Below, in pieces: positions 598 to 3,975 of a stretch of DNA of 64,000 nt. Location: positions 1-64,000 of the forward strand of contig NZ_BMVG01000001.1 in assembly GCF_014650595.1 (NCBI RefSeq). The letters are read 5' to 3'. This DNA is from Streptomyces alanosinicus (lineage in GTDB: Bacteria; Actinomycetota; Actinomycetes; Streptomycetales; Streptomycetaceae). The notes under the pieces are model-generated. The model ran no database searches. It had not been told where the DNA came from and worked only from the letters and a program-made list of their open reading frames with translations. The stretch's first letter is position 1; the number at the start of each line of letters is the position of its first letter. Position numbers and translations under genes: made by a program.

Positions 598-2181
598 TCA
601 GGCCTGCCACGGCCACCGGGTGTCGCGGGCCGCCTCCAGCAGCGGCACCATCCGGAAAGCGGCGTCGGTCAGGCCCCCGAAGGTGTGCCGGTTCCCGCTT
701 CCGGACGGTCCGTGGCCCGCCCGGTAGCCTTCCAGGTTCCAGGTGTAGACGGGCACGTGCGCCGGGATCTGGGCAGTCGGGTCGCCGTGCCGGTTCGGGG
801 CGTACTGCTCGTCGGTGACGATCAGCACCCGGTCGTGCTTCTTGTAGTGCCGGCGCACCGCGTCGGTGGTGTCGGTGCCGCCCAGGTCGCCGAAACGCTC
901 CAGGATTCTCAGCACCGACTCCCCCTTGCGGAACGGCACCTTGTTGCTGTTCGTGCCGAACTCGACGAGGTCGGCGTCGGCCGCCCGCAGCGCGAGCGCC
1001 GTGCCGAAGATCGCCGCCGCGTCGGCCCGGTTGAGCTGCGAGCGCTCCGCGACCTGCGACCAGAACATCGAGCCCGACCGGTCGACCAGGACCAGCGTCC
1101 GGCCGGGCAGCGCGGGCACATCGGCCAGCGAGTGGCCGAGCGCCTGCTCCAGCGGGTACGACCAGCGCAGCGAGGGCGCGTGCCGGTACGCGGCCAGGTA
1201 GCGGAACGGGAACTGCCGCGAGCGCGCCACCTGCTCCGGGTCGCTGATCTTCGCCGCGACCTGGGCGGCGACCTCGTCCGAGACGCCCGCCTCGTCGAAG
1301 TTGCGCAGGTTGCGGACCAGCGCCATCGCGCCCATGGAGGGGATCACGGCCTCCCAGGCCGCCTTGTCCATCGGGCCCTGGAGCCAGCCGGCCAGCGCCT
1401 CCCAGGTGATGCCGGCCGCCGCGAGCCGCTCGGCGCCGCCGGGTGCGGTGACGGCCGCCCGCCGCTCCGCCACCGGCAGCGCCATCAGCTCCCGGTGCGC
1501 GCAGAGCACCGGCAGCGATGCGGGCGGTACGGCGGTGTCGGGGTTGTGCCGCCGGTCGAGCGCGTACCGGAACAGCTCGCCCTGCCACGGCTTGTCCGGG
1601 TCCGGTGCCGCGTGCACGAGGTTGAGGATGTCGCCGAAGCGGTAACCCTTGGACGCGGTGTCGTACTTCAGCAGCGACCTGGCGTGGTAGAGCCGTCGTA
1701 CGGCGTCGGCGACCCCGCGCTTGACGGGCTTGGGGACGGCGCGGCCGTGGACGGAGGTCCAGTACCCGAGCAACTCGCCGGGCTCGTCCGGGCGCTGGAG
1801 AACGGAGTCGACGACCTGCCGGTTCGACGGGCCGTCGGTGGCGCCGGCCGCCAGCCGGGCGTGCACGTACTCGGCGGCGCCCACGATCGACGCCGTCCGC
1901 AGCTGCCCCTCACCACGCAGCCAGCCGAGCAGTCCGGCCGTCCAGTCCGGGTCGCTGACGGCGAGATCGCGCACGAGCCGGGCGAACCGCTCGTCGCGAT
2001 CGGTGCCGGACTCGTAAAAGGTGTTCTGTGTGACGAGGTTGGAGACCGCGAGCAGGAAGAGCTCGGAACGCGACTCGCGCTCCTGGCCCGGGCCGCCCTC
2101 GTACGTCCGCAGGGTGCGGCCGGTGGTGGTGACGGGCGAGGCCGCCTGGGCCTTCGTGGCACGCGTGTTGAACCGCGCCAT
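598..2181 (-). CDS. rsr: Ro60-like TROVE domain / vWA RNA-binding protein (Rsr)
   Basis: This 527-residue protein is the bacterial relative of the Ro60 autoantigen, a ring of HEAT-like repeats that binds Y RNAs and misfolded or structured RNA. The N-terminal two thirds is TROVE-like (LFLLAVSNLVTQNTFYESG, then helical repeats with VRDLAVSDPDW and GAAEYVHARL). The C-terminal third is a von Willebrand A domain with an intact MIDAS motif, LVLVDRSGSM, near residue 365. Length is normal for the family. The ATG at 2181 has only a weak ribosome binding site, GGGGGAATTCACC. Directly upstream on the same strand lies a structured element that looks like a Y RNA (2215-2394), so the two probably form one Ro RNP locus. 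Known roles of bacterial Ro are rRNA maturation under stress and RNA decay with PNPase; here that is inference from the family. Confidence 0.93.
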   Translation of the reverse strand: MARFNTRATKAQAASPVTTTGRTLRTYEGGPGQERESRSELFLLAVSNLVTQNTFYESGTDRDERFARLVRDLAVSDPDWTAGLLGWLRGEGQLRTASIVGAAEYVHARLAAGATDGPSNRQVVDSVLQRPDEPGELLGYWTSVHGRAVPKPVKRGVADAVRRLYHARSLLKYDTASKGYRFGDILNLVHAAPDPDKPWQGELFRYALDRRHNPDTAVPPASLPVLCAHRELMALPVAERRAAVTAPGGAERLAAAGITWEALAGWLQGPMDKAAWEAVIPSMGAMALVRNLRNFDEAGVSDEVAAQVAAKISDPEQVARSRQFPFRYLAAYRHAPSLRWSYPLEQALGHSLADVPALPGRTLVLVDRSGSMFWSQVAERSQLNRADAAAIFGTALALRAADADLVEFGTNSNKVPFRKGESVLRILERFGDLGGTDTTDAVRRHYKKHDRVLIVTDEQYAPNRHGDPTAQIPAHVPVYTWNLEGYRAGHGPSGSGNRHTFGGLTDAAFRMVPLLEAARDTRWPWQA

Positions 2182-2214
2182 GGTGAATTCCCCCGAATTC
2201 AGATGCGTTTCGGA

Positions 2215-2394
2215 GGGAGGCGCAGCAAAAGGAAGGTGTCCGAGGTCAGGGGTCGGCGACGGACTTTTGTCAGATGCTCTGCCCTTGAGCTACATCGACC
2301 CGAGGTCGATGACGGGATTCGAACCCGCAACCATCCGATCCGATGAAGTAACCGCTGCCTGCGCACCGGACACCCACCATGAGCTGCGCCTCCC
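2215..2394 (-). ncRNA. yrlA: Y RNA-like (YrlA-type) with circularly permuted tRNA-like domain
   Basis: The minus strand folds as a closed Y-type RNA. The ends pair perfectly over 12 bp (2383-2394 with 2215-2226). After an 8-by-8 internal loop, whose 3' side is pyrimidine-rich, comes a second 8-bp stem (2367-2374 with 2235-2242). The distal part holds tRNA modules in permuted order: a T arm with TTCGAAT loop (2312-2328), then the 3' and 5' acceptor strands joined by a short UCG cap (2293-2311), then U8-A9-like TA, a D arm GCTC-AAGGGCA-GAGC with the G18G19 pair, and a 3-bp hairpin GAC-AAAA-GTC where the anticodon arm would be. This is the organisation described for bacterial YrlA RNAs. It sits 34 bp upstream of the Ro60-like gene. 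The exact ends are inferred from the terminal stem. Confidence 0.85.
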
Positions 2395-2501
2395 GAGATC
2401 AAGTCGGCTGCGGCCGTTGTTTCGTTCCTGGAAAGGGAAGGAGCCGCTGCCATCGCACCGGGAGGTGCGTGACGTTGTGATCTCACTGTAGGAGGCGCAG
2501 C
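2345..2501 (-). repeat. Partial duplication of the Y RNA 5' region and a third stem arm
   Basis: A block inside the Y RNA (2345-2370) recurs 92 bp further upstream (2437-2462) with 21 of 26 positions the same; shared cores are CCGCTGCC and CGCACCGG on the plus strand. The stem-arm sequence GGAGGCGCAGC also occurs a third time at 2491-2501, in the orientation of the 3' arm. The Y RNA 5' arm could therefore pair with either 2215-2226 or 2491-2501. It could be a relic of a second Y RNA or an alternative fold of a longer precursor. Confidence 0.6.
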
Positions 2502-2523: not shown

Positions 2524-3975
2524 TTACCGCTTGTGCCGCTTCCACGGTCCCGTGATGGCCAGCATGATGCCGGGGGTCTGGATGTTCGCGAACAGGGTGC
2601 GGCCGTCCGGGGAGAAGGTGACACCGGTGAACTCACCGTACTCCGGGGCGTCCGCGGTACCGATGTTCAGCTCGTTGCGGGCGATCGGGTAGGTGCGGCC
2701 GCTCTCGGTGGCGCCGAACAGGTGCTGGACGCCCTCGCCGTCCTCGGCGATGACGAGGCCGCCGTAGGGGGAGACGGTGATGTTGTCCGGGCCGTCGAAG
2801 GCGCCGTCCTTCGACGGGTCGGGGTTCACGCCGAGCAGGACCTTCAACGTCAGCGTGCGGCGCGACGGGTCGTAGAACCAGACCTGGCCGTCGTGCTGGA
2901 CCGGGCTCTCCGCACGGGCGTAGGAGGAGACGATGTAGGCACCGCCGTCGCCCCACCACATGCCCTCCAGCTTGCGGGCCCGGGTGATCTGGCCGTCGGT
3001 GAACTGCTTGCGCACCGAGACGGTCCGCGCGTCGCGGTCGGGGACGTCCGCCCAGTCGACGCCGTAGACGGTGCCGATCCGCGTGGCGCGGGAGAGGTCG
3101 TCCACGAACGTGCCGCCGGAGTCGAAGCACCTGAAGGCCTGGAGCACGCCCGCGTCGTCGGCGAGGGTGCGCAGCCGGCCGCGGCCGTGCCGGAAGCCCT
3201 GCGGCGGGGTCCAGCGGTACAGCAGGCCGTTGGGGCCCGCCGCGTCCTCGGTGAGGTAGAGGTGGCCGCGCCTCGGGTCGACGACGACGGCCTCGTGGGC
3301 GTAGCGGCCGAGGGCCTTGACCGGCTTGGGGTCGCGGTTGGCGTGACGGTCCTCGGGGTCGACCTCGAAGACGTAGCCGTGATCCTTGGTGAAGCCGTTC
3401 TTGCCGGCCTTGTCCTCGGTCTCCTCGCAGGTCAGCCACGTGCCCCAGGGGGTGCTGCCGCCAGCGCAGTTGGTGGCGGTGCCGGCGATGCCCACCCACT
3501 CGGCGCTCTCGCCGCCGCGGCGGACCTCGACGACGGTGCAGCCGCCGGCCGCCGCCGGGTCGTAGACGAGGCCCTCGGTGAGCGGCACCGGGTGCGGCCA
3601 TTGGGCGCGGGCGCCGGCCAGCTCGTGGTTGTTGACGAGGAGGGTGGTGCCGCGGGGGCCCTCGAAGGCGGCGGTGCCGTCGTGGTGGGACGGCGTGAAC
3701 TCGCCGGACTCCAGTGTGGTCCTGCCGCTGTAGGTGATGATCTTGTAGGCGAAGCCCGCGGGCAGGGCGAGGATGCCGTCCGGGTCGGGGACCAGCGGGC
3801 CGTAGCCGACGCCGTGGTGGCCCCCGTGCGCCGACTCCGTCCCGGCGTTCTCGCTACCGTCCGTCGCGGCGAGGGCGTTCGGCGCGGAGGCGAGCGCGCC
3901 GACGCTGCCCGCCAGGGCGATCCCGGCACCGGTGATCGCGGATGTTCTGGCGAAGTCCCTGCGGGTGAGCGACAT
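2524..3975 (-). CDS. DUF839 / PhoX-family Tat-exported phosphatase-like protein
   Basis: The ATG at 3975 has a good ribosome binding site (AGGAGACACACC) and gives 483 residues. The N-terminus carries a Tat motif, RRDFARTS, a hydrophobic stretch and an ALA cleavage region, so the protein is exported folded. The mature part matches the DUF839/PhoX family of beta-propeller phosphatases (GTWLTCEETEDKAG, GRYAHEAVVVDP, EGMWWGDGGAYIVSSY, PDNITVSPYGGLVIAEDGEG). Family members bind Ca and Fe and release phosphate from organic esters. It is shorter than classic PhoX, so the activity is inferred. An 11-bp direct repeat resembling a PHO box lies 71 bp upstream, consistent with PhoP control under phosphate starvation. 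Confidence 0.85.
   Translation of the reverse strand: MSLTRRDFARTSAITGAGIALAGSVGALASAPNALAATDGSENAGTESAHGGHHGVGYGPLVPDPDGILALPAGFAYKIITYSGRTTLESGEFTPSHHDGTAAFEGPRGTTLLVNNHELAGARAQWPHPVPLTEGLVYDPAAAGGCTVVEVRRGGESAEWVGIAGTATNCAGGSTPWGTWLTCEETEDKAGKNGFTKDHGYVFEVDPEDRHANRDPKPVKALGRYAHEAVVVDPRRGHLYLTEDAAGPNGLLYRWTPPQGFRHGRGRLRTLADDAGVLQAFRCFDSGGTFVDDLSRATRIGTVYGVDWADVPDRDARTVSVRKQFTDGQITRARKLEGMWWGDGGAYIVSSYARAESPVQHDGQVWFYDPSRRTLTLKVLLGVNPDPSKDGAFDGPDNITVSPYGGLVIAEDGEGVQHLFGATESGRTYPIARNELNIGTADAPEYGEFTGVTFSPDGRTLFANIQTPGIMLAITGPWKRHKR

Follow-up and report, generated by a model that had tools for sequence, protein, structure and literature searches.

Tandem predicted Y RNA modules with exchangeable tRNA-like heads ahead of a Ro60-type gene in Streptomyces alanosinicus

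What does a tRNA-like fold do when it stands, opened and rejoined in another order, just ahead of a gene for a Ro60-type protein? The question is raised by a minus-strand locus near the start of contig NZ_BMVG01000001.1 of Streptomyces alanosinicus, of which we have analysed positions 1 to 64,000 (64,000 nucleotides, hereafter the window). A preliminary description, made from the sequence alone, had placed here one Y RNA with a circularly permuted tRNA beside a Ro60-like gene. We consider, with a probability of roughly 60%, that the locus carries two tandem predicted Y RNAs, modules M and B, ahead of the Ro60-type gene, and that these present different heads on a common frame likely gripped by the Ro60 ring. 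It is already known that Y RNAs of bacteria tether Ro60 and carry a tRNA-like module. New here is the modular array, in which tRNA-like heads of different tRNA shape classes are exchangeable and a bare module stands in tandem with headed ones. The earlier single-element view had missed module M, the tandem arrays and the exchange of heads.

The Ro60-type protein and module B

The gene that starts at 2181 appears, from its sequence and its predicted structure, to encode a Ro60-type protein with a Ro60 fold. It exceeds the Pfam cut-off for TROVE (51 bits versus 23), and its AlphaFold model, for which alignment A7 (23 rows) served as input, has a predicted local distance difference test (pLDDT) score of 86.8. 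In a structure search with this model, all 13 PDB matches under E 0.001 were Ro60/TROVE proteins sharing the ring and vWA fold, with template modelling (TM) scores of 0.60-0.73, including Rsr of D. radiodurans (2nvo, E 1.8e-14) and human Ro60. By sequence, the closest solved relatives are 9kop and 9l5y (E 3e-28), the latter titled as Ro60 from the Thermus phage phiLo. With this protein and with the covarying helices given below, the claim of a Ro60-like gene beside a Y RNA whose tRNA is permuted at the acceptor stands.

Module B ends 33 bases before the TROVE start codon, where 34 had been given. The fold reported for it, for which no strand had been specified, is present on the minus strand (Table 1): a 12-base-pair (bp) terminal stem, an 8-by-8 internal loop, an 8-bp stem and a core of T arm, acceptor and D arm with A14 and G18G19. 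It lacked one conserved element, a second 8-bp frame helix. The T arm, closed acceptor and D arm form a permuted tRNA-like domain as in the plan of YrlA, and the Rfam model of YrlA (RF02553) matches 2250-2358 on the minus strand with 43.6 bits (E 1.5e-8). The likeness to YrlA is borne out in plan but not at the gathering score of 69, which no scanned relative reaches either (best 60.8, L091); across the whole window, the Rfam scan gave no match at gathering score. Judged by its sequence, module B is a putative Y RNA of the YrlA plan that lies outside the Rfam cut-off. Our model R1 scores module B at 133.9 bits with the window row as part of R1, and model R3, built from 36 relatives with the window left out, finds the frame of module B with 40.1 bits. 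The folding energy of the module B strand beats 200 of 200 dinucleotide shuffles (z -5.2); the opposite strand folds equally well by energy, so that energy alone does not settle the strand. No Rfam match in the region other than that of YrlA is meaningful; a tRNA-Sec match (E 0.47) was set aside as chance-level.

The helices of module B covary among relatives. Alignment A1 holds 36 class I modules, the window included, the intact ones having been hand-picked from 58 representatives of module B and of a more distal module A. Over its 37-pair structure, 95.1% of 1293 cells are paired, changes on both sides occur in 25 of the 37 pairs, and covariation is 0.477, compared with 0.141 in shuffled and 0.052-0.120 in slid controls. 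Changes on both sides are seen in 4/5 pairs of the anticodon stem and 2/5 of the T stem. The D stem shows a GCGC/GCGC double change in loci L261 and L270. Covariation of the terminal stem in relatives, by which the preliminary description had proposed to be judged, is also present: all 12 pairs form in 47 of 70 loci. Of 408 cells, 388 are paired, in 34 distinct pairs, where shuffling the partners gives 374.9 +/- 2.0 and 0/1000 shuffles as high; the register had been chosen within +/-3 before the control was run.

The tRNA in module B is opened at the anticodon loop, and the frame is joined there. The preliminary description had let a 3-bp hairpin replace the anticodon arm. This hairpin can form in the window, but its bases overlap the anticodon stem UCUGA/UCGGA, and in an alignment of 23 B modules of class I, that of the window among them, it is whole in 12, whereas the anticodon stem keeps at least four pairs in 22 and all five in 14; we rejected the replacement on this comparison. 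In A1, two anticodon pairs are gapped in 16-18 rows. The 5' hairpin of the minimum-energy fold, kept in 2/23 modules and so less than the anticodon stem, was likewise rejected.

Table 1. Positions of the features of the locus in the window
Feature	Position	Strand	Remark
TROVE/Ro60-type protein, 527 amino acids	598..2181, start codon at 2181	minus	Pfam TROVE and AlphaFold fold
Predicted Y RNA module B: outer stem, Ro-binding-type frame, permuted tRNA-like head	2215..2394	minus	element of the preliminary description
Outer 12-bp stem, 5' strand	2383..2394	minus	2394-2389 also in module M 3' strand
Outer 12-bp stem, 3' strand	2215..2226	minus	
8x8 internal loop	2382-2375 / 2234-2227	minus	from sequence
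Frame stem (8 bp), 5' strand GGUGUCCG	2367..2374	minus	6/8 pairs change on both sides
Frame stem (8 bp), 3' strand CGGACACC	2235..2242	minus	
Frame helix 2 (8 bp), 5' strand GGCAGCGG	2352..2359	minus	7/8 pairs change on both sides
Frame helix 2 (8 bp), 3' strand CCGUCGCC	2255..2262	minus	
UUACUUC motif	2345..2351	minus	near-invariant with or without tRNA head (A1, A2)
Anticodon stem, 3' strand UCGGA	2334..2338	minus	
Anticodon stem, 5' strand UCUGA	2270..2274	minus	
T arm, loop UUCGAAU	2312..2328	minus	100% of cells paired
Acceptor strands, order reversed, with CUCGG as linker	2293..2311 (2311-2305 and 2299-2293)	minus	6/7 pairs change on both sides
D arm GCUC-AAGGGCA-GAGC, with A14 and G18G19	2276..2290	minus	stem invariant in A1
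Predicted Y RNA module M: frame of module B, small hairpin instead of tRNA head	2383..2468	minus	adjoins B upstream
-10-like TACAGT	2485..2490	minus	upstream of module array
Promoter-like TAATTC	2522-2517	minus	partner of TACAGT
PhoX-type gene	2524-3975	minus	

Tandem arrays and their link to TROVE genes

Module M is found by model R3 with 80.1 bits (E 2.1e-15), and its pairs covary (0.133 versus 0.062). Since GGGAGG at 2394-2389 belongs both to the 3' strand of module M and to the outer stem of module B, the two stems are mutually exclusive, and the minimum-energy fold of the whole leader forms that of B. The shared GGGAGG could serve as a folding switch. R3 also gives a weak antisense match over 2386-2471 on the plus strand (20.3 bits, E 0.025).

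We surveyed 89 loci of the genus (the window, L003-L031 and L062-L120, leaving out the 300-base L061), 37 modules of which had built the model. Counted from the tables, 83 of them have an M module of 76-87 nucleotides, three keep a remnant of 40-41 nucleotides (L064, L066, L068) and three lack M (L075, L083, L119). At least one tRNA-bearing module reaches at least 67 bits in 72 of the 89; the 17 others include ten whose TROVE protein is 66-71% identical to that of the window and which show M alone in the fetched 1 kb. These point to a second Streptomyces TROVE type (L100-L106, L108-L110, with the plasmid locus L229 at 72%) that is preceded, as far as the fetched stretch reaches, by an M-type module alone. 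A second set, the 80 named relatives kept from 296, consists entirely of Streptomyces, with TROVE identities up to 91%; the distal third module A is present in 60 of these loci, and M is intact in 68 by regular expression and in L247 and L273 by eye. Four modules stand in tandem in some genomes (L040-L042). Of 80 viral loci searched with the frame pattern, 75 contain between one and five modules and five contain none. Most Ro60 loci covered here, from actinobacteria and from their viruses, have between one and five modules in tandem on a common frame. No description of such arrays was found in the open-access literature searched, a scope outside which the main YrlA papers lie.

The modules also follow the TROVE gene across genomes. 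TROVE is present in 25 of 197 genomes of the class, and full-length R1 matches of at least 63 bits occur in 23 of these 25 and in none of the 172 genomes without TROVE; 14 of the 23 had given no row to R1. The two TROVE genomes below this score reach 49.8 (G159) and 53.1 bits (locus of G312), and the top listed full-length match in a TROVE-negative genome has 47.8 (G244). Low-scoring partial matches were set aside; the one inspected (G000:C1:668788-668872) spans two neighbouring tRNA-Asn genes. In genome G162, a Y module lies between tRNA genes of a 16-gene ARAGORN array near TROVE on one contig stretch (L218 2610-4856). Full-length modules are also located downstream of the Ro gene (Atuin, L227 4549-4698), and in the genome searches two lie on stretches with no TROVE match (L215 3562-3705, in G095:C5 with 93.6 bits, and L216 3383-3546, in G323).

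On the one hand, these modules resemble YrlA of Salmonella and Mycobacterium smegmatis, which likewise adjoins the Ro60 gene, follows the order of T arm, looped acceptor and D arm, and leads by a stem to a Ro-binding domain. On the other hand, in a comparison made without the main YrlA papers, they differ in their tandem arrangement, the headless module, the long variable arm of the Leu-like heads and the anticodon-like loops. Another likeness is to the nematode stem-bulge RNA ceN72-3_ceN74-2 (RF01656), which matches beside TROVE genes and shares a UUAUC motif in L034. At E 0.001 this model has a single match in the 197 genomes, just ahead of a TROVE match (G333:C1:520706-520769, 36.2 bits), and a module of G179 (L034 2219-2327) scores 37.7 bits, having been missed by the genome search with its stricter filter. 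Both fall just under the cut-off of 38 and accompany a more distant TROVE type than that of the window. Bacterial Y RNAs have been called non-homologous with the vertebrate clades (excerpt of PMC4726728), a view against which the RF01656 matches are a lead, no more. The animal Y_RNA family (RF00019) gave no match in the 197 genomes, and its controls gave none either.

Head types and their exchange

The head position on the frame is empty or holds a class I, a Glu- or Gln-like, or a class II Leu-like insert, the last with its long variable arm. In Streptomyces, class I and Leu-like are the two main kinds among proximal heads. The head of the window is closest to tRNA-Arg(ACG) of the same genome (32 versus 26 for the next isotype), with both halves in agreement; other class I heads like Arg(ACG) are L008 (41 of a possible 51 versus 28) and L003 (39 versus 28). 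Isotype calling on whole class I heads was abandoned as mixed (His 46, Arg 18, Leu 16 and ten others in 127 sites, chance sites included), and we therefore used only D arms with clear margins. Leu-like D arms, found in 18 of 112 modules, score 15-19 to tRNA-Leu versus 7-9 to the next isotype, that of L062 being identical to tRNA-Leu over 19 positions. These heads mostly have a long variable arm, the stems of which vary and yet pair (UUCCUG/CAGGAA, GAGGG/CCCUC, UCCGUA/UACGGG). In 13 distinct modules the best variable-arm stems sum to 55, compared with 38.1 +/- 2.6 when shuffled (0/2000); three modules have two pairs or fewer (L006, L231, L288), although the whole segment of L006 still folds a 5-bp hairpin. 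In L070 (62-260), a Leu-type head has an internal tandem duplication of its acceptor/D-strand segment. Glu-like D arms are found in L042 (16 versus 12) and L316 (18 of 20 versus 12), and Gln-like ones, with margins of 1-4, in L040, L041 and the phage Alone3. Loci L325 and L365 carry Glu-like, Gln-like and generic heads within one array, and the 95 tRNA-bearing viral modules parsed comprise 61 generic, 7 Gln, 6 Glu, 1 Ser and 20 unclear heads.

Many heads have an anticodon-like loop. A 3-bp hairpin with a 7-base loop, U second and A or G last, stands directly 5' of the variable loop in 100 of 251 distinct head segments, which are not independent by descent, compared with 16.7 +/- 4.3 after shuffling (maximum 29 in 200 shuffles). 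The stems vary (CCA/UGG, CUC/GAG, CGA/UCG, CCU/AGG, CCG/CGG and others), and the loops are mostly CUNNNAA. Judged by their sequence, loop-bearing heads resemble complete permuted tRNAs with the cut placed between the D arm and the anticodon arm; the window head is without such a loop. The expectation that the element would mislead tRNA finders holds elsewhere but not in the window, where ARAGORN called no tRNA. The annotations 'tRNA-Arg(tct)' of Gordonia phage VanLee and 'tRNA-Ser(gct)' of Streptomyces phage Alone3 overlap Y modules, and ARAGORN calls a tRNA-Arg inside a module of L217. The phage-record annotations, tRNA-Arg(tct) and tRNA-Ser(gct), lie at L226 2204-2275 and L225 2274-2347. In phage records, at least two annotated 'tRNA genes' are in fact parts of Y RNA modules.

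Among the 80 named Streptomyces loci, 44 have a class I head and 34 a Leu-like one, while in two (L239, L255) the insert is lost and the frame remains; seven heads unassigned by regular expression were settled by eye (4 class I, 1 Leu-like, 2 lost). On a TROVE tree of 110 rows (102 different, 107 labelled) made by a quick method, head type changes at least 25 times, 12 of the changes being forced by well-supported branches. It is still clustered on this tree, the shuffled mean being 34.5 with 0/500 as low as observed. Head type differs within seven sister pairs, and in three of these the fork has support below 80; L257 (class I) and L281 (Leu-like) are an example of sister loci with different heads. 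In the first 30 loci, eight changes are needed and five forced, and the label is unclustered (144/500 shuffles as low).

Of 29 loci, 21 could be parsed and 8 could not, and we compared the 210 pairs that the parsed ones form. In the 16 different-type pairs with TROVE identity of at least 0.88, module A (0.93), M (0.88) and the 5' frame of B (0.94) are kept while the insert drops to 0.62 and the 3' frame of B to 0.71; in the 12 same-type pairs at this identity, insert and 3' frame are both at 0.91. The head is therefore replaced in place, together with part of the 3' frame. Because Leu-like heads resemble each other, we favour exchange between strains over fresh capture of tRNA genes for most switches. 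Close Ro60 proteins with different heads consequently offer natural experiments on the purpose of the tRNA-like domain.

Possible roles of the heads and the remaining features

The promoter-like element near 2490 probably drives transcription of the array. In bacteria, it is the lower stem of the Y RNA to which Rsr binds (excerpt of PMC4726728), and by analogy the Ro60 ring would hold the outer stem, with the frame as a handle. The tRNA-like head may then recruit tRNA-binding proteins. The Y RNA of Deinococcus tethers Rsr to PNPase (excerpt of PMC7790460), and a review ascribes PNPase tethering to the tRNA-like domain of YrlA as well, which is modified by tRNA enzymes (excerpt of PMC8394870). 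After this example, PNPase would be the likeliest partner. Like the Deinococcus Rsr/Y RNA/PNPase particle (RYPER), the locus pairs a ring protein of Ro60 fold with a neighbouring predicted Y RNA, but the window protein is outside the Rsr equivalog of the National Center for Biotechnology Information (NCBI), and PNPase tethering, reported for Deinococcus, is transferred to the window from the literature. A different head would give the same Ro60 ring a different partner. We tentatively propose, at somewhat under even odds, that the arrays form a repertoire of tRNA look-alikes (Arg/class I, class II Leu, Glu, Gln, some with an anticodon loop) on one predicted Ro60-binding frame, traded in place as specificity or decoy cassettes in actinobacteria and phages. 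If so, one protein ring could be retargeted by trading an RNA head.

Several points weigh against this picture. For the protein, the score for the NCBI equivalog 'RNA-binding protein Rsr' is 18.1 bits where the cut-off is 900, and module B falls short of the YrlA gathering score. Models R1 and R2 contain the window row, and at E 0.001 R1 matches 105 of the 197 genomes, the weaker matches being mostly partial. The hand-picking of A1 rows raises their pairing; even so, 20 of the 36 rows have a non-standard pair at one position of frame helix 2 (A/C in the window) and 10 at one position of the anticodon stem, and the shuffle controls ignore relatedness. Class I isotypes are often ambiguous, His being nearest in 46 of the 127 scored sites, mostly with small margins. 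Since the 3' frame of B drops together with the insert, the swap has no clean boundary, and head switching may partly come from transfer of whole loci.

Among the alternatives, the one we take most seriously, though we consider it unlikely, has the heads as decoys that copy tRNA families and titrate tRNA-cleaving nucleases or other factors, with exchange as an arms race. The frequent exchange in place, the different isotype-like heads in one array, the U33-type 7-base loops, and the Ro60-type genes with Y modules inside phage tRNA clusters and viral contigs are all in keeping with it, and YrlA has been suggested as a competitive inhibitor of an anticodon nuclease (excerpt of PMC7790460). However, the window head has no anticodon-like loop, and head exchange also fits the choice of partners, being compatible with recruiter and decoy alike. 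To our knowledge no nuclease binds these heads, which also counts against it. We rank recruitment above the decoy role because bare M modules occur beside headed ones and because related systems are reported to tether PNPase.

It is doubtful that module B is an ordinary YrlA relative whose one generic tRNA fold drifts, with isotype likeness arising by chance. The YrlA match, the generic D arms of most class I heads (61 of 95 in viruses) and the often small isotype margins would agree with drift. Against it, Leu-like D arms lead the next isotype by 7-10 and mostly come with a class II-type variable arm, Glu-like D arms reach 18 of 20 versus 12, and A, M and the 5' frame do not switch with the head. 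A role as a cis-acting leader, in which the modules lie in the presumed TROVE 5' untranslated region and Ro60 binding tunes its own translation, appears improbable; the short distance from module B to the start codon and the GGGAGG common to two exclusive helices speak for it, but full-length modules also lie downstream of the Ro gene (Atuin, L227) or away from TROVE matches (G095:C5). Such a role is compatible with two tandem Y RNAs gripped by Ro60, and the readings are not exclusive. Permuted tRNA genes are known in archaea and algae and have the identical segment order joined at the acceptor, but a transcript circularised to a working tRNA is very improbable here, as the window head has no anticodon loop and no working anticodon, its acceptor is closed by CTCGG with no CCA end, and permanent, conserved outer helices hold it.

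On the minus strand, the order is PhoX-type gene, promoter-like element, module M, module B and TROVE gene. Alignment A4, of 13 relatives and the window row together, has TANAGT in 13/13 rows and TAATTC in 11/13 (not L082 and L086). Scanning the leader with the sigma-70 consensus and searching it for terminators gave none of either. A palindrome, GAATTCGGGGGAATTC, at 2184-2199 on the minus strand overlaps the TROVE ribosome-binding site, which it may mask, and recurs in nearly all Streptomyces leaders inspected. Also, by eye, a secreted-looking reading frame with tandem GHEQEGSKPGHDEEG-type repeats occupies 1-450 on the minus strand and seems to run past the start of the window.

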